Shown here one piece after another: positions 2,410 to 36,196 of a stretch of 64,000 nt of DNA. The stretch comes from Micromonospora sp. RP3T (GTDB taxonomy: Bacteria > Actinomycetota > Actinomycetes > Mycobacteriales > Micromonosporaceae). A program made the translations under genes and the position numbers. Within the stretch, counting starts at the first letter, position 1, and each line of letters opens with the position of its first letter. The stretch covers positions 62,001 to 126,000 of the forward strand of contig NZ_PYPS01000007.1 in assembly GCF_003027925.1 (NCBI RefSeq). Direction: 5' to 3'. Below the pieces are notes generated by a model, which was not told the DNA's origin, did not search any database, and saw only the letters and a list, made by a program, of their open reading frames with translations.

Positions 2410-3870
2410 ATGCCTGCATCGAGACGACACCACAGGACCCTGGCCGTGCTGGTGAACTGCCTCGGCGTGCTCGCCGCCGTGCCGGCGCTGCCCCCGGCGG
2501 CGCCCCGGGCGGTCGCCGCGCCCGCCCGGTCGGCCCCGCCACCGGCCCTGGCCGCCGCGCCGGTCCGCCCGGTGGCGGCGGCCACCCCGATTCCGACCGG
2601 CGTGCCGGCGGTGCCCCCCGCGGTGCCGACCACCGGCCCGGCGCCGGTGCAGCCGTCGATGCCACCGGTGAGCGTGGCCGTCGGCGCCGCCGGTACCCCG
2701 GCGCCGGGGTACCGGATCGAGGTCCGCAACGCCGGCCCGGCGCCGGTCGAGACGATGGTCCGGCAGGAGCTGCCGACCGGGTCCCGGGCCACCACGGTCA
2801 CCGGCGGCGGGCAACGCACCGGCCCGGTCGGGGCGACCACCGGCGAGGTGACCTGGCGGCTGCGCCTGCCGGCGCGGAGCACCACCACGCTGCACACCGC
2901 GCTCGCGGTCACCGGCCCGGACCGTTCGGTGACGGCTCCCGCCTGCGTCTACGGCACCGACGGCACCCGCCCGTACGACTGCGCCACGGCGACCTGGGTG
3001 GCCGCCGCCGCGGCCCCGACCGCGCCGGCGACGGCCGCCCCGGCCTGGCGTCGCCCGCCGGTGCTGCTGGCCGCGCTCGCCGCGCTGCTGGTGCTCCTCG
3101 CCGGGGCGCTCTGGTGGGTGGCCCGCCGCCGGCGGCGCGGCGCCCCGGTGCCGGCCGGCATCGCCAGGTCCGGCACGGGCCCGACCGGCCCGGTGGGCAC
3201 CGCCGGGCCCCTTGCCGTCCCGACCTGCCCGGCGGACGGCGACGGGACGCCGGTCGGCCCCGGGATGGGCGGTCCGACGGACCGGGGCACGGTCTACCCG
3301 CGCCCGGCGCTGCCGACGCCCACCGTCCGGCGTCGCCGACCGCCGGTCTGGTTGACGGTCGGCGTGGCGGCGGCGGTACTGGCCGGCGTGGTCGGCGCGG
3401 CGGCCTGGACCGCCACCCAGCGGGTCGCCGCGATGGACACCACCAAGCAGCCGACCAGCGGCGCCTGGGTGGGCAGCAGCGTGACCGGAGCGCTCGGCGT
3501 GCCGCTGCGCGAGACCGCGTTCGAGTTCACCGTCTACCGGATGAGCTGCGGCGCGGGCGCGGTGCCGGCGGCGCCGGCCGGCGGGCGGCCCTGTCTGGCC
3601 ACGGTCGGCGTGCGCAACCTCACGTCGGAGCAGCAGACCTGGCACGGGCAGTTGCAGCGCGCGTACCTGCCGAGCGGCAACTGGGTGGCCGCGGACGAGG
3701 ACGCCACCCGGGTGGCGAACCTGGGCCGGGACGTGTTCGCCCAACCGGTGGCCGCCGGCCGGCGGGTGCTGCTGCCGCTGGTGTTCACCGTGCACGGGGC
3801 CGAGCCGCCGAAGCAGTTGGAGCTGCGCAGCGGCGTGTTCTCCGCCGGCGTGCGGGTGGACGTGGACTGA
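2410..3870 (+). CDS. Multi-domain membrane protein with DUF11-like and DUF4352-like domains
   Basis: The 486 residues start with a signal or anchor helix (about 14-31), followed by a Pro/Ala-rich linker. A beta-rich domain at about 95-190 (YRIEVRNAGPAPVETMVRQE) resembles DUF11 surface repeats. Hydrophobic helices at about 215-235, followed by RRRRRG, and about 310-335 bracket a Gly/Pro-rich loop. The C-terminal part (about 350-486) resembles the DUF4352 immunoglobulin-like fold with two cysteines (MSCGAG and RPCLAT) that could pair. GGAGG lies 9 nt before ATG 2410. It is probably an envelope protein with extracytoplasmic binding domains. I do not recognise a function. Confidence 0.7.
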   Translation: MPASRRHHRTLAVLVNCLGVLAAVPALPPAAPRAVAAPARSAPPPALAAAPVRPVAAATPIPTGVPAVPPAVPTTGPAPVQPSMPPVSVAVGAAGTPAPGYRIEVRNAGPAPVETMVRQELPTGSRATTVTGGGQRTGPVGATTGEVTWRLRLPARSTTTLHTALAVTGPDRSVTAPACVYGTDGTRPYDCATATWVAAAAAPTAPATAAPAWRRPPVLLAALAALLVLLAGALWWVARRRRRGAPVPAGIARSGTGPTGPVGTAGPLAVPTCPADGDGTPVGPGMGGPTDRGTVYPRPALPTPTVRRRRPPVWLTVGVAAAVLAGVVGAAAWTATQRVAAMDTTKQPTSGAWVGSSVTGALGVPLRETAFEFTVYRMSCGAGAVPAAPAGGRPCLATVGVRNLTSEQQTWHGQLQRAYLPSGNWVAADEDATRVANLGRDVFAQPVAAGRRVLLPLVFTVHGAEPPKQLELRSGVFSAGVRVDVD

Positions 3871-20415: not shown

Positions 20416-22014
20416 CTACTCGTCGCGCAGGTCGGCCGCGCTGGCCGCGACCGCACCGATCGAGTCGGCCGCGGAGGTGAGCAGGTCGGCGCCGAGCGCC
20501 TGGTCGACGGTGAGCGTCATCAACGTCTCGCCGCCGGCCTCCCGCCGGGCCACCTGCATGGCGGCGATGTTGACGCCGGCCTCGCCGAGCAGCGTGCCGA
20601 CCGTGCCGACCACCCCGGGACGGTCGACGTAACGCAGGAAGACCAGGATGCCCTCCGCGCCGATCTCCACGTCGAAGCCGTCCACCTCGGTCAGCTTGAG
20701 CACGTCCCGGGCGCCGGTGTGCACCGCCGTGCCGGAGACCCGGACGGTCCGCCCGTCCGGCAGCGCGCCGCGCACCGTCACCAGGTTCGGGTGGTCCACC
20801 GTCTCGGTCGGCGTGGCCAGCGTGACCTCGACGCCCCGCTCGGCGGCCAGGTGCGGCGCGTTGACGTAGGTGACCTGCTCCTCGACCACGGAGCTGAACA
20901 GCCCCTTGGTGGCGGCGAGCTTGAGCACCGACACGTCGTGGCTGGCGATCTCGCCGCGCACCTCGACGGTGACGCTGGCGGCCACGCCGCCGGCCAGCGC
21001 GGTGAACGCCCGGCCCAGCTTCTCGGCCAGCGGCAGCAGCGGCCGGACGTCCTCGGCGACCACGCCGCCGGCCTGCACGTTCACCGCGTCCGGCACGAAC
21101 TCGCCCTGGAGCGCGAGCTTGACGCTCTTCGCCACGGCCAGACCGGCCTTGTCCTGCGCCTCGTTCGTGGAGGCGCCCAGGTGCGGGGTGGCCACCACGT
21201 TGTCGAACGCGAACAGCGGCGACGAGGTGCAGGGCTCCTTGGCGTACACGTCGACTCCGGCGCCGGCGACCCGGCCCTCCGCGATCGCGTCGGCGAGCGC
21301 CTGCTCGTCGACCAGCCCGCCCCGGGCGGCGTTGACGATCCGGACGCCCGGCTTGACGACCGCCAGTTCCTTCTCGCCGATCAGGCCCACCGTCTCCGGC
21401 GTCTTCGGCAGGTGGATCGAGATGAAGTCGCTCTCCCGCAGCAGCTCCTCCAGGCCGACCAGACGCACCCCGAGCTGCGCGGCGCGGGCCGGCTGGATGT
21501 ACGGGTCGTACGCGATGAGCCGGGTGCCGAACGCGGCGATGCGCTGCGCGAACAGCACGCCGATGCGGCCGAGGCCGACCACGCCCACGGTCTTGCCCTG
21601 GATCTCCACGCCGGTGTACTTCGACCGCTTCCACTCGCCGGCCTTGAGCGCGGCGCTGGCGCTGGCGGTGTTGCGGGCCACCGCGAGCAGCAGCGCGACC
21701 GCCTGCTCGGCGGCGGAGACGATGTTGGAGGTGGGAGCGTTGACCACCATGACGCCACGCGCGGTGGCGGCCGGCACCTCGACGTTGTCCAGGCCGACGC
21801 CGGCCCGGGCGACCACCTTCAGCCGGGGCGCCGCCGCGACCGCCTCGGCGTCGATCTGGGTGGCGCTGCGTACGATCACCGCGTCGGCCTCGGAGAGCGC
21901 GGAGAGCAGGGCCGGACGGTCGGTGCCGTCCACGTGGCGCACGTCGAAGTCGTGCGCGAGCACCTCGATGGCGGCGGGGGCGAGTTCTTCGGCGATCAGT
22001 ACGACAGGATTCAT
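20416..22014 (-). CDS. serA: D-3-phosphoglycerate dehydrogenase
   Basis: 532 residues, the long type with an intervening ASB domain and a C-terminal ACT domain. The NAD site is VVGLGRIGVLFAQR. Catalytic Arg, Glu and His appear in NAARGGLVDE, the stretch AKEP and TPHLGAS. It catalyses the first step of serine synthesis and its ACT domain usually senses serine. ATG 22014 has GAGGA at 7 nt; a longer frame start at 22182 is rejected because it gives an unrelated N-terminus. It follows ilvC on the same strand, with a strong terminator between them, as in other actinobacteria. Confidence 0.95.
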   Translation of the reverse strand: MNPVVLIAEELAPAAIEVLAHDFDVRHVDGTDRPALLSALSEADAVIVRSATQIDAEAVAAAPRLKVVARAGVGLDNVEVPAATARGVMVVNAPTSNIVSAAEQAVALLLAVARNTASASAALKAGEWKRSKYTGVEIQGKTVGVVGLGRIGVLFAQRIAAFGTRLIAYDPYIQPARAAQLGVRLVGLEELLRESDFISIHLPKTPETVGLIGEKELAVVKPGVRIVNAARGGLVDEQALADAIAEGRVAGAGVDVYAKEPCTSSPLFAFDNVVATPHLGASTNEAQDKAGLAVAKSVKLALQGEFVPDAVNVQAGGVVAEDVRPLLPLAEKLGRAFTALAGGVAASVTVEVRGEIASHDVSVLKLAATKGLFSSVVEEQVTYVNAPHLAAERGVEVTLATPTETVDHPNLVTVRGALPDGRTVRVSGTAVHTGARDVLKLTEVDGFDVEIGAEGILVFLRYVDRPGVVGTVGTLLGEAGVNIAAMQVARREAGGETLMTLTVDQALGADLLTSAADSIGAVAASAADLRDE

Positions 22015-31679: not shown

Positions 31680-34439
31680 TCAGATGATGCCGGTTTCGCG
31701 GGTGAGGTTGCGGACCTGCCACTCGCCGGCGACCACGTCGCTGTTGGGGCGGTACAGCAGCGCCGTGTTGCCGTTGACGGCGGTGTACGTGAGGTAACGG
31801 CGGGTGTCGCCCACCCAGGCCGAGATGCCGGTCCGGCCGGGCGGGAGGTCACCGGTCGGGATGTCCCGCACCTGCCAGGCGTCGCCGTCGGAGACGACCT
31901 CCCGCAGGCCGCCCTGGTAGTCGGCGCAGACGATCACCCAGGTGAGGTCGACCCCGTCGACGCTGAACAGCCGTTGCACGGTCATCGCGCGGGTGGGCGG
32001 CAACCCCAGCTCGGCGGTGAGCGACCGGGTGTGCCACACCCCGTCGCCGCCCAGCTCCCACATCCGGACGTCCAGGCGGTAGTCCAGGGCGAACAGGCGG
32101 TGCTCCTCACTGGCACGGGCCGACCCGAAGATCGGCATGGCCTCCAGCGGGGTCGGGTTCTCGGCCTGCGTCGCCCAGGTCAGCGAGATGTGGCTCCAGC
32201 CGTCGGCGTGTTCCTGGAGCAGGCGCAGCCCGTCCTCGTTGTCCCGGTACGCCACCGCGTCGAGGCCGGTCGCCTGGTCGACGTACCCGATGATGCTGCC
32301 GTTGTGGGTGCCCGCGCCCGGCTGCGAGATGTCCTGCCAGGTCCAGCCCGCACCGGGCGTCTCGGAGAGGCGGATGATCCGGCCGTCGGGGTCGCCGTAG
32401 ACGATCCGCTGGGTGTCGCCGTTGCGGTAGGCGTAGGGCGAGCCGGCGATCGGGGGCGCGCCGCCGGTCTCCACGTTCAGGTCGTTCCACCACCACTCGC
32501 CGCCGTCGTACCAGAGCTGGTGCAGGTGGTCACCGTCGCCCCGGTAGACGTACGACGGCACGCCGTCGTGGGCGAAGAAGAGACTGGGGGCGTGGCCGCG
32601 GGCCATCAGTGGCGCGCCGAGGTCGGCGGTGAGCCGGGTGTACGTCCAGGTGTCCGCGTCGGCCGGGTAGTGCACCAGGAGATGCTGCTCGCAGTCCTGG
32701 AGGGCGATGTGGTCGACGCCGGGCAGCACCTGCATGCCGGTGCCGGAGAGGAACGGCAGCCGACCGTACGCGTGGTGGATGCCGGCCCGGTCGTCGGACT
32801 TCGGGACGCGGTACCAGGTGGCGTTGCGGTACATGACGTTCTTCTTCTTGCCGTGGTGCAGGCCGAGCGCGTGGCCCAGCTCGTGCGTCACGACGTGCCG
32901 GAAGTCGGAGTTGTACCAGGTGAGGTCGAAGTAGCCGGGGGCATCCCAGTTGATCTCCCGATTGAAGATCATCGGGAGCTGGGCCCGTTCCGCCGGCCAG
33001 TTCTGCCCGGCGTACCACTTGGTGACCGCGTACACCGACCTGAACCAGTTCGAATCGCGGAAGACCGGGTCGTCGCCGACGGAGATGAGGATGTCCGCCT
33101 GAGCCGGGTCGTCGACCCGCTCGAAGTCGAACGGGCCGTACCAGTCGGCGCCGAGCACCTTGTTCCACTCGGCGAACGCCGCCCGGACGAGTTCCTCCTT
33201 CAACTCGTCGGTGAAGCCGGGCCGGGCGTTCGGCATGTGCATGTCGCCCAGGTGGTAGGTCAGGTTGGTGTGCCGGTAGTGGTTGAGCACGTGGAAGCTC
33301 GGCACCGCCGCCACCGGGTCCGGGTTGCCGCAGCCGGGAGCGGTCAGGTGCGCGACGGTGGTGGCGTCCGGACGCCCGGTCACCGGCAGCTCGTGGAACT
33401 CCTGGTACGCCCGCAGCGCCCCGCCCAGCCCGCCCGCGACCGGGTAGCCGGCGTCGGTGAGCAGTGTGGACACCGCCGCCAGCGGCACCTCGGTGAGGTC
33501 CGGCCGGATCAGCGACACCGTACCCTCGACGTTGTCGCCCACGTAGACGCCGCCGTCCGCGCCCACCTCGACGCCGTACGGGCTGGGACCGGTGACCACC
33601 GGTTCGAGCGTGTGCGGCTGGTACGGGCCGGTGGCGTCGATGAACTGGGCGCCCCGGTCGGTGGCGGCCCAGGCCTGCGACAGGTGCGGGTGCGCGGCGA
33701 GGTCCCGCGCCCCGGCCGCCGTGCCCACCGCCCCCAGCCGCTCCCCCGTCTCGGGCGCGTGCACGCCGGCCAGCGGATGTACCGAGCCGCCGCCCAGGGA
33801 GGCCAGGTAGATCAGGCCGTCCTGGCCGACCGCCACCGGCCCCGGCTGGAGGCGCGACGGCGTGACCGGCGTGGCCCGCACCGTACCGTCCGGTTCGACC
33901 ACGGCGAGCGCGTCCACCGGCGGGGTGGCCGCCTGGTCGGAGAGGGAGACATGGACGCGGCCGTCCGGGGCGACGGCGAGCCGCACCGGCCGTGACGGCA
34001 GGGCGATGATCCGGCGCCGCGCCGGGTCCCCGGCCTCGATGGCGAAGAGTCGCCGATGCGCCCAGTCGGCGGTGTACAGCACGTCGGCGGCCGGGTCGAC
34101 GGCCACCGCGATCAGCCCGAAGCCGATCGGGATCTCCTCGACCCGGCCGGTGTCCAGCGCGCAGGCCGAGACGCTGTAACTCTCCTTGCCCCAGTTCATC
34201 ACGTACGCGGTCCGCCGACCCGGATGCCAGGCGACCGCCCGCGGGTAGTGGCCGACCGGCATCGGGGCCGCGACCGGGGCGAGCGTACGCGGGTCGAGCA
34301 CGTGCAGCTTTCCCCGACCGGAGGCGCCGTAGTGGGTGGCGAGCAGCACCGGACCGGCCAAAACGAGGCCGTGGACCGACCCGGGGTCCTCCGACGTGCC
34401 GAGGCGGACGTGGAACGGCGGCGGAACAGGAGTGGCCAT
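31680..34439 (-). CDS. Matrixin-type metalloprotease with two beta-propellers
   Basis: 919 residues. An N-terminal propeller (about 20-325, repeated VDP/AxDG-type blades) is followed by a peptidoglycan-binding-like helix bundle (about 325-366). PGCGNPD (Cys370) resembles the cysteine switch of animal matrix metalloproteinases. A matrixin catalytic domain (about 390-560) has HELGHALGLHH (519-529) and Met-turn NVMY. A second propeller-like region fills about 565-919. So the order from 325 onward mirrors animal proMMPs: pro-domain, switch, catalytic domain, propeller. No signal peptide or membrane helix is visible, so how it would leave the cell is unclear. ATG 34439 has GAGGT at 5 nt. Confidence 0.85.
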   Translation of the reverse strand: MATPVPPPFHVRLGTSEDPGSVHGLVLAGPVLLATHYGASGRGKLHVLDPRTLAPVAAPMPVGHYPRAVAWHPGRRTAYVMNWGKESYSVSACALDTGRVEEIPIGFGLIAVAVDPAADVLYTADWAHRRLFAIEAGDPARRRIIALPSRPVRLAVAPDGRVHVSLSDQAATPPVDALAVVEPDGTVRATPVTPSRLQPGPVAVGQDGLIYLASLGGGSVHPLAGVHAPETGERLGAVGTAAGARDLAAHPHLSQAWAATDRGAQFIDATGPYQPHTLEPVVTGPSPYGVEVGADGGVYVGDNVEGTVSLIRPDLTEVPLAAVSTLLTDAGYPVAGGLGGALRAYQEFHELPVTGRPDATTVAHLTAPGCGNPDPVAAVPSFHVLNHYRHTNLTYHLGDMHMPNARPGFTDELKEELVRAAFAEWNKVLGADWYGPFDFERVDDPAQADILISVGDDPVFRDSNWFRSVYAVTKWYAGQNWPAERAQLPMIFNREINWDAPGYFDLTWYNSDFRHVVTHELGHALGLHHGKKKNVMYRNATWYRVPKSDDRAGIHHAYGRLPFLSGTGMQVLPGVDHIALQDCEQHLLVHYPADADTWTYTRLTADLGAPLMARGHAPSLFFAHDGVPSYVYRGDGDHLHQLWYDGGEWWWNDLNVETGGAPPIAGSPYAYRNGDTQRIVYGDPDGRIIRLSETPGAGWTWQDISQPGAGTHNGSIIGYVDQATGLDAVAYRDNEDGLRLLQEHADGWSHISLTWATQAENPTPLEAMPIFGSARASEEHRLFALDYRLDVRMWELGGDGVWHTRSLTAELGLPPTRAMTVQRLFSVDGVDLTWVIVCADYQGGLREVVSDGDAWQVRDIPTGDLPPGRTGISAWVGDTRRYLTYTAVNGNTALLYRPNSDVVAGEWQVRNLTRETGII

Positions 34440-34798
34440 GGTGACCTCGACTGGCGACAGGGTCCGGGCGGACCGTTTCGACGGACCGCTTCGGTCCACC
34501 ACCAGTGGAGGTCGCCACCGTGCCGCTGTCAGTCGTTTCCCCGGCGCGGTGCGGTCAGATCTCGGATCCTCGCCGTGGTGGCGGCCGGGAATCGCAGTCA
34601 GCTAACAGACGGAAGGGCCGGTAAGGGCCGAACCGTTGACCCGGACGCCTCCGTCCGGCAGACCGATCCGGGCCGGGCGGATCGTCCGACACCCGACCCG
34701 GGCAGCTCTTTCCATGCGTACGCGCCCACGATCACGCCGCTTTCCGGCCCGGCCCGCAGGTAACTTCTCGTACCACCGCCTTCACGAGGAGTATCCGC
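34440..34798. other. Intergenic region between divergent genes
   Basis: 359 nt between the metalloprotease and nuclease starts. It holds two small stem-loops, GGACCG-CTT-CGGTCC (34483-34497) and CCGGACG-CCTC-CGTCCGG (34641-34658), and the GAGGAG ribosome site of the next gene. I could not find a convincing -35/-10 pair. Confidence 0.4.
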
Positions 34799-36196
34799 AT
34801 GTCCGAGGAGACCTGGCTCGCGGCCCGCCTGATCCCCACGTCCGGCATCAACGGCGCGGAGGAGCAGGAACGCCGGGCGACGTCCGCCCTGCTGGCGGTG
34901 ATGAGCGCGGTACGGGAGTTCGGGCGGGTGCTGACCCAGTCCCTGGGCGCACCGGCCGGCACGGTGCAGACGTTCATCGAGGTGCCGTTCAAGCTCGGCA
35001 CCCAGCAGCTCTTCCCGGACGGCCTCATCCGGGTCACGCGGGGGCAGCGACAGTGGACCGCGCTGGTGGAGGTGAAGACCGGCAGCAACGCGTTGCGGGC
35101 CGAGCAGGTGGAGGCGTACCTGGACATCGCCCGCGAGCACGGCTTCGACGCGCTCGTCACGATCTCCAACGAGATCGCCCCGGTGCCCGGCCAGCACCCG
35201 ACCACTATCGATCGTCGGAAGCTGCGCAAGGTCGCGCTCTACCACCTGCCCTGGACGGAGATCCTGACCCAGGCGGTGATCCAGAAGGAGTACCGCGGCG
35301 TCGCCGACCCGGATCAGGCGTGGATCCTGGGCGAGCTGATCAGGTACCTCGAACACCCACGTTCGGGCGCACTGGAGTTCAGCGACATGGGACCGGCGTG
35401 GGTCCCCGTACGCGATGGGGTGTCGGCCGGGACGCTGCGGGCCGGCGACGGCGGCGCGGCGGAGGTGGCCGGCCGCTTCGACGCCCTGATCCGCTACGCC
35501 TGCCTGCGCCTCGGCCGGCAGTTGGGCACCGACGTCACGCCCGCTCTGAGCCGCCGTGACCTCGCCGACCCGGCCGCCCGCACCCAGTCGCTGGTCAACC
35601 AGCTCGTCACCAGCGGAACCCTGACCGGAAGCATCCGGATTCCGGGCGCGGTCGGCCACCTCCACGTCACCGCCGACCTGCGGGCCGGGCAGATCGTCTG
35701 CCACGTCGACGTGGACGCTCCCCGCACCGGCCGGCCGACCACCAGGGTGAACTGGCTGGTCCGCCAACTGAAGGACGCGCCGGAGACGGTGCGGATCGAG
35801 GCGTTCGCCATGCACGCCCGCGGAGGCGGCGCGACGGACCTGCTGCGACAGGTCCGCGCCGAGCCCGGCATGCTGATCACCGACCCCGCCCGTGAGCTGC
35901 GGGCGTTCCGGGTCGCGCAGAGCACGGCGGCGGGCACCAAGCGGGGCAGCGGGCGGGGCGCCTTCATCGACTCCGTGCTGCGCGCGATCGACGACTTCTA
36001 CGAACAGATCATCCAGAACCTGAAGCCGTGGATGCCCGCCCCGCCGCGCCTGCGTACGCCGGAGGATGTCATGCCAGTGCAGCCGGTCGCCGCGAGCCTC
36101 GTCTCGACCGCCATCTCCTCCCAGGACAGCCCCGACCTCGGCACGCCGTCGGAGACATCCGCCGGTCACGGGGCCGATGCGCCCTCTGCGGAGTGA
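34799..36196 (+). CDS. PD-(D/E)XK nuclease-like protein
   Basis: 465 residues. The core is visible near the N-terminus: Asp74 in FPDGLIRV, Glu91-Val-Lys93 in ALVEVKTG, and Gln103-x3-Tyr107 in EQVEAYLDIA. This is the D...ExK plus QxxxY set of RecB-like restriction-type nucleases. The middle part (about 215-420) is an alpha/beta region of unknown fold, and the last 50 residues are disordered. Actinobacterial homologues are sometimes labelled stress response protein. It stands alone, with no methylase, helicase or phage gene nearby. GAGGAG is 9 nt before ATG 34799. A nuclease role is inferred from the motif only. Confidence 0.7.
   Translation: MSEETWLAARLIPTSGINGAEEQERRATSALLAVMSAVREFGRVLTQSLGAPAGTVQTFIEVPFKLGTQQLFPDGLIRVTRGQRQWTALVEVKTGSNALRAEQVEAYLDIAREHGFDALVTISNEIAPVPGQHPTTIDRRKLRKVALYHLPWTEILTQAVIQKEYRGVADPDQAWILGELIRYLEHPRSGALEFSDMGPAWVPVRDGVSAGTLRAGDGGAAEVAGRFDALIRYACLRLGRQLGTDVTPALSRRDLADPAARTQSLVNQLVTSGTLTGSIRIPGAVGHLHVTADLRAGQIVCHVDVDAPRTGRPTTRVNWLVRQLKDAPETVRIEAFAMHARGGGATDLLRQVRAEPGMLITDPARELRAFRVAQSTAAGTKRGSGRGAFIDSVLRAIDDFYEQIIQNLKPWMPAPPRLRTPEDVMPVQPVAASLVSTAISSQDSPDLGTPSETSAGHGADAPSAE

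Follow-up and report, generated by a model that had tools for sequence, protein, structure and literature searches.

Zymogen-like layout and conserved switch cysteine of a Micromonospora matrixin with no visible signal peptide

How might a bacterial metalloprotease with the layout of an animal matrix metalloproteinase (MMP) zymogen, and with no visible signal peptide, be kept silent where it is made? The question is raised by a gene in a stretch of 64,000 nucleotides of Micromonospora sp. RP3T (contig NZ_PYPS01000007.1, positions 62,001–126,000; hereafter the window, with coordinates counted from its first nucleotide). The initial annotation described the gene product as organized like an animal MMP proenzyme (proMMP), with an extra propeller ahead of the protease, suggested latency by a cysteine switch at Cys370, and regarded the missing export signal as odd. 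The layout has been borne out, with prodomain, PGCGNPD motif, matrixin domain, and flanking propellers all present. Judged from its sequence, the protein is a divergent matrixin in zymogen form, a form that appears to be spread widely but sparsely in prokaryotes. The reading preferred here, held with a little more confidence than doubt, is that it is a leaderless matrixin zymogen, which Cys370 would keep latent for as long as the protein stays in the reducing cytoplasm and which would open after release.

Domain layout of the window protein

The features of the gene and its product are as follows.

31680..34439 (stop codon included), minus strand: gene for a 919-amino-acid matrixin with two propellers, a single open frame
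34445..34448, minus strand: GAGG, Shine-Dalgarno-like, 5 bases 5′ of the ATG
33504..34412, minus strand: N-terminal YVTN/YncE-type β-propeller, residues ~10–312 (sequence and fold)
33342..33482, minus strand: three-helix PG_binding_1-like prodomain, residues ~320–366 (sub-threshold Pfam match, profile, AlphaFold helices)
33318..33338, minus strand: switch motif PGCGNPD, residues 368–374 (alignments, proMMP-1 profile match)
33330..33332, minus strand: Cys370 codon; putative zinc latch, without variation in alignments A1, A3, and A4
32760..33278, minus strand: matrixin catalytic domain, residues ~388–560 (Pfam, fold; structural-zinc motif absent)
32853..32885, minus strand: HELGHALGLHH, catalytic zinc site, residues 519–529 (conserved)
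32832..32834, minus strand: Met536 of the Met-turn (NVMYRN), invariant in alignment A4
31683..32753, minus strand: C-terminal seven-bladed PLL-lectin-like propeller, residues 563–919 (repeats, AlphaFold strands, superposition)

The reading frame starts with the ATG at 34439, and its stop codon ends at 31680. No hydrophobic stretch was seen by eye in the 54 open codons 5′ of this conserved ATG. The 7.13 Mb genome has one copy of the gene (the protein matched only itself) and no second Peptidase_M10 match (E up to 0.001). Its homologs are 916–919 amino acids long. The layout is not a chance product, because it recurs as a whole in five other genomes, each time with PGCGxPD, the motif for which the initial annotation had proposed a homolog search. 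The six proteins that share it (the window protein, L002, L003, L010, L011, and L014) all read PGCG[NT]PD, and the five relatives come from four genomes of the same genus (61–62% identity) and one of another family.

The catalytic domain is matched by Pfam Peptidase_M10 (PF00413) at residues 388–559 (E 1.1e-12; 48.5 bits against a cut-off of 24). Together with the invariance of Met536, this confirms the matrixin domain with HELGHALGLHH and Met-turn that had been noticed at the outset. In fold comparison, for which a model of mean predicted local distance difference test score (pLDDT) 61.8 was used, the 50 best matches reached Z scores of 12.2–13.9, and the root-mean-square deviation (rmsd) was 2.8–4.4 Å in 49 of the 50 (MMP catalytic domains alone).

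The prodomain is predicted by AlphaFold to contain helices at residues 320–329, 338–348, and 359–366; the Pfam PG_binding_1 match to residues 341–365 scores 21.3 bits, 1.7 below the cut-off of 23. In a plain phmmer search, residues 341–561 align to proMMP-1 with CG.PD upon CG.PD. A profile of nine prokaryotic sequences, including the window protein, aligns from prodomain through catalytic domain to proMMP-1, -3, -10, -9, and -7; the best match is human proMMP-1 (E 2.6e-66), whose PRCGVPD lies under the prokaryotic switch. Counted from the switch cysteine, the tyrosine in the first strand of the catalytic domain lies 25 residues away in the window protein and 24 in proMMP-1. The Cys, Gly, Pro, and Asp of PRCGxPD are all present in the window protein, and its Arg is replaced by Gly.

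The propeller ahead of the protease, also part of the initial annotation, is recognized both by sequence, through Surface layer protein 1l0q (E 7.6e-9 with a single sequence and 2.6e-17 as a profile), and by fold, through E. coli YncE (residues 6–313, Z 29, rmsd 2.3–2.5 Å). The C-terminal region has seven W motifs marking blade ends (residues 598, 649, 699, 748, 802, 855, and 907; spacing ~50). Residues 566–914 of the model superpose on Photorhabdus PLL/PHL lectins with Z scores of 32.7–33.7 and rmsd of 2.3–2.6 Å over 301–312 residues; these lectins fill ranks 1–18 of 50 with 12–15% identity (12–16% when the Foldseek alignments are included) and give Foldseek TM scores of 0.69–0.77 (target length). 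With a sequence profile of this propeller, PLL chains were not recovered at E values as high as 0.1, and the C-terminal region of five members matched no Pfam family over cut-off. The C-terminal domain of animal MMPs is a hemopexin domain, and a hemopexin-like C-terminal propeller was set aside in favor of a PLL-like one on the basis of repeat number and fold ranking; no hemopexin chain is among the fold matches listed, although absence from such a list is no proof. The propeller-type region seen in the initial annotation stands as a propeller, but its likeness to the animal enzymes is not borne out: by modeled fold it is PLL-lectin-like and, among the matches listed, not hemopexin-like.

The propeller type of the window protein also occurs in another setting. 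L012 (1456–3804, minus strand), from G142, a genome of another genus of the same family, encodes a different metzincin (HELGHSLGLHHGG) with that type of propeller attached, here on the C-terminal side of the metzincin.

The switch cysteine among relatives and known zymogens

Two profiles were built, one of the catalytic domain and one of the prodomain helices that ends ahead of the switch, so that the cysteine is left out. All distinct HExxHxxGxx[HD] frames of at least 150 codons in 88 sequences (the window and the gathered loci) were scored; two of the 69 frames (in L012 and L016) did not match the catalytic profile within an E limit of 1e-3 and were removed. The relatives gathered are a sample, not a census; L016 and L017 duplicate the sequences of L010 and L014, respectively. 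The prodomain helices were found in 23 of the remaining 67 metzincin-like frames (E < 0.05). An unconserved Cys370 would speak against a switch; this was not observed, because a cysteine occupies the switch position in all 23 prodomain-bearing frames, as CGxPD in 21 and as CGVSD (L053) and CALPD (L076) in the others. Among the 44 frames with no prodomain match, CGxPD occurs only in L055 (RFCGVPD), which has an unmatched prodomain-like region; eight further frames of this group have CGxxD somewhere ahead of the active site, lacking the P. The prodomain model was trained on nine of these 23 frames, six of the 23 belong to one clade, and most relatives were fetched with profiles in which the cysteine is one of 226 to 257 positions. 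L084 lies close to the prodomain threshold (E 0.043), but PG_binding_1 is recognized there by Pfam.

Within the window clade, PGCGxPD is kept in 6/6 members at 54–66% domain identity, and the adjoining linker is variable. Outside it, [SP]RCGxPD was found, among the matches listed, in an archaeal metagenome-assembled genome (MAG; L018), a cyanobacterium (L019), Nannocystis (L020–L022), and a Myxococcales MAG (L028). L015 reads PRCGFPD, and the switch cysteine is the sole cysteine in the 561 amino acids from its likely start, as it is in the 991-residue frame of L055. In a tree of 63 catalytic domains, whose resolution is too low for rooting or dating the prodomain (29 of 60 inner branches are open), the prodomain label needs seven changes, compared with about 19.4 in shuffles (L055 was set to 'prodomain' by eye). 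A DNA pattern for PRCGxPD proved useless, matching 242 of 396 genomes and giving many matches in the reversed control.

Several relatives depart from the common pattern. L055 (G1395) has TPR-like repeats, seen by eye, ahead of its RFCGVPD switch and matrixin domain. L082, on a Paenibacillus sonchi plasmid, keeps the prodomain and PRCGLPD and has apparently lost the Met-turn methionine (HSNVKASVSHRYLH). L050 and L058 are metzincins with no PG_binding-like helices and with a cysteine ahead of the protease (QYCALKP and PLCGLPP, respectively), which recalls the short cysteine pro-segments of bacterial astacins.

Compared with the animal and plant proMMPs (proMMP-1, -3, and -9), the window protein shares the PG_binding-like prodomain, the cysteine of CGxPD, HExxHxxGxxH, the Met-turn, and nearly equal spacing, but no export signal is seen, Gly stands for the switch Arg, the structural-zinc motif is missing, the C-terminal propeller is PLL-like, and an N-terminal propeller is added. 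PRCGXPD is used by mammalian MMP zymogens and probably also by those of other animals, of plants, and of fungi (PMC6949598); the plant MMPs belong to MEROPS M10A (PMC2715019). Among bacterial enzymes, karilysin of Tannerella forsythia gives the top fold match (Z 13.9, with matches within 1 counted as tied; rmsd 3.4 Å over 154 residues), whereas its 14-residue pro-segment carries an aspartate switch (PMC6949598). Promirolysin and promyroilysin share a bacterial cysteine switch, which in mirolysin was demonstrated by structure and mutation (PMC6949598; PMC8259862), but they are of the pappalysin and astacin families, respectively, and have extended pro-segments of fewer than 50 residues instead of a helical PG_binding-like prodomain (PMC6949598). 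The literature searched, in which subscription papers were mostly out of reach, yielded among the matches listed no bacterial matrixin whose cysteine switch had been examined by experiment. The closest modular parallels are L015, L018 (which runs off its contig), and L019, where no signal is seen and the order from prodomain to C-terminal propeller is the same; they differ in having recognizable DUF346/PLL repeats (by Pfam for L015 and by eye for L018 and L019), in keeping PRCG or SRCG and the structural-zinc motif, and in lacking an N-terminal propeller.

Latency, release, and alternative explanations

The layout, the conserved cysteine, the catalytic residues, the fold class, and the lack of a visible signal peptide are observed; the mechanism that follows, from the zinc contact and latency to opening by oxidation, release, the binding of glycans, and the substrate, is inferred. 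The switch loop, PGCGNPD, and the PG_binding-like helices ahead of it would fold across the active site, and Cys370 would bind the catalytic zinc as a fourth ligand beside His519, His523, and His529, ousting the water needed by Glu520. In the reducing cytoplasm, the Cys370 thiol would be held on the zinc, and the protease would be silent at its place of synthesis because the thiol stays there. The protein would leave the cell through lysis or some non-Sec route. Outside the cell, the active site would open when Cys370 is oxidized or the prodomain is cleaved; oxidants and mercurials are known to open proMMPs. Of the two propellers, the C-terminal PLL-like one would anchor the protease on glycans, and the N-terminal one on a partner.

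No signal peptide is seen, by hydropathy and by eye, in the window protein and its same-layout relatives. By the same means, a lipoprotein-like signal was found in four of the 23 prodomain-bearing proteins (L020, L021, L022, and L028), all from Myxococcota, and none was seen in 18 others; L053 is uninformative here, as its frame begins within the prodomain. The start of L076 is mildly hydrophobic (1.38 over 12 residues), and for L003, L014, and L028 the scripted upstream starts were overruled by eye. By this measure, the lack of a visible signal pointed out in the initial annotation is not an oddity of this protein but usual among prodomain-bearing relatives. The Photorhabdus PLL/PHL lectins, which share the seven-bladed fold, likewise have no recognized signal peptide, and PLL2 and PLL3 were found in the extracellular fraction (PMC12203525).

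The structural-zinc motif of matrixins consists of GxHxD, AHA, and HFD. Several observations weigh against a leaderless, Cys370-latent zymogen, and this motif enters into one of them. The switch Arg is replaced by Gly in 6/6 members of the window clade, whereas Arg is found in 17/17 other prodomain-bearing frames. The structural-zinc motif has gone from the window clade, save for one GDHPD in L014, and was seen in 12 of the 17 other frames (its third part by eye in three). A structural zinc site is named for MMPs in PMC12587646. According to a paper on plant MMPs (PMC2715019), replacement of Arg by His renders the switch of human MMP-26 inactive. In the AlphaFold models, made from nine and eight sequences (mean pLDDT 61.8 and 69.3, respectively), the switch loop is unplaced (pLDDT < 50), and prodomain and catalytic domain together superpose on proMMPs only at rmsd 10.8–12.8 Å. 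Because of the unplaced loop and this joint rmsd, the model speaks neither for nor against a Cys370–zinc contact; the top Foldseek ranks for the prodomain–catalytic model are proMMP-9, -3, and -1. Lastly, residues 24–35 of the window protein have a hydropathy of 2.01 over 12 residues, on a par with the myxobacterial signals of Nannocystis (1.98–2.42). At the aligned place, L002, L010, and L011 score 1.07–1.31, and the fourth relative of the same genus has no such hydrophobic stretch; from the model, residues 24–35 are read as the first propeller strand rather than as a signal. Given the Gly for Arg and the loss of the structural-zinc motif, the latch of the window clade may be loose or vestigial. 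The Cys370 latency first suggested has a conserved cysteine and a zymogen layout behind it but, with the Arg and the structural-zinc motif gone from this clade, is best described as plausible.

Alternatively, the latch could be a relic, with Cys370 kept for packing or a weak zinc contact and the enzyme constitutively active or controlled by its propellers. This explanation, which we consider rather unlikely, is in line with the replaced Arg and the lost structural-zinc motif, with the MMP-26 precedent (PMC2715019), and with the long branch of the window clade in the tree (0.93 changes per column), but the retention of PGCGxPD in all six members beside a variable linker argues against it. The lack of a visible signal peptide could also mean that the protein is never exported and acts inside the cell, in redox-triggered self-destruction or as a conflict protease, and the TPR-like repeats before a similar module in L055 would suit such a role. 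However, no conserved neighbor was found among the frames compared, and no such system appears in the available portions of two papers on conflict systems, so that an intracellular role seems quite improbable. The protein might instead be cargo of a dedicated non-Sec exporter, for instance a contractile injection system, and a T4-gp19-like tube gene is indeed present in the same genome. Yet the tube gene (PF06841) occurs in 4/5 same-genus genomes with the protease and in 19/26 without it, and in only one of six tested genomes of other actinobacteria with a cysteine-switch matrixin, and no secretion gene was recognized next door among the frames scanned. The contractile injection system was rejected as exporter for lack of association among the genomes tested (G615, G623, and G641 were left out), and carriage by it or by another dedicated exporter is very improbable. 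The T4-gp19-like tube protein itself (L071, G000:C95:80682-81074) is common in the genus and perhaps belongs to a contractile injection system.

Beyond the single protein, the leaderless, thiol-latched zymogen preferred here may be one instance of a wider family. It is possible, although as a whole still doubtful, that thiol-latched matrixins, mostly with no export signal, form a family in Actinomycetota, Cyanobacteriota, Bacillota, Myxococcota, and an archaeal MAG. In them the switch would serve as a compartment sensor: bound to the zinc and closed while in the reducing cytosol, it would open on oxidation following lysis or damage, and a propeller or lectin arm would aim the freed protease. 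As part of the same proposal, the PG_binding–CGxPD–matrixin module of animal and plant MMPs would be shared with, and possibly inherited from, prokaryotes, and the window clade would be a derived branch with a loosened latch. That bacterial MMPs are widespread is already known: they occur in at least 1,039 species, and a bacterial origin is considered likely, whereas their cleavage of animal matrix proteins is described by the authors as untested (PMC12587646). In a word search of the main text of that 2025 phylogeny, 'propeptide', 'prodomain', and 'cysteine' were all absent. Should the complete module of prodomain, switch, and catalytic domain prove to be spread among prokaryotes, the cysteine switch of animals would not have to have been invented by them, and zymogens, beyond the catalytic domains by themselves, could be used to examine where MMPs originated. 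In addition, a switch in proteins with no export signal provides a concrete and cheap hypothesis for thiol-based latency.

Distribution and genomic neighborhood

The full layout is sparse, being found in 5/354 genomes of the family, including that of the window (E up to 1e-20); a sixth match, in G142, covers only the propeller. The narrow profile A2 matched 3/394 genomes of the class, and the wider profile A4 matched 8/316 of the class, 14/200 of the family of G749, and 5/199 of the family of G612; the A4 counts take in matrixins lacking a prodomain, and E limits differ between counts. A first contig scan with the full-length protein found no relative. Copies on plasmids occur in Paenibacillus and Streptomyces and are annotated as 'matrixin family metalloprotease'.

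In a blastp comparison of the window frames at 22000–46000 with the four same-genus loci and L017, no shared neighbor was found. The frames were chosen by length and by GC content at third positions, and a GGDEF-EAL gene was left out because a spurious long frame covered it. Pfam assigned four nearby frames to GH2, to GGDEF-EAL, to a sub-threshold HTH match, and to no family, respectively. The patchy occurrence and the unshared neighbors suggest horizontal movement of the gene. The divergent neighbor at 34799–36193 (plus strand) encodes 465 amino acids and matches no Pfam family at E 0.001. On a Streptomyces globosus plasmid (L083), a cysteine-switch matrixin gene is immediately preceded by one of the serpin family (1482–2747 and 2881–3813, plus strand), and the two possibly constitute an inhibitor–protease pair.

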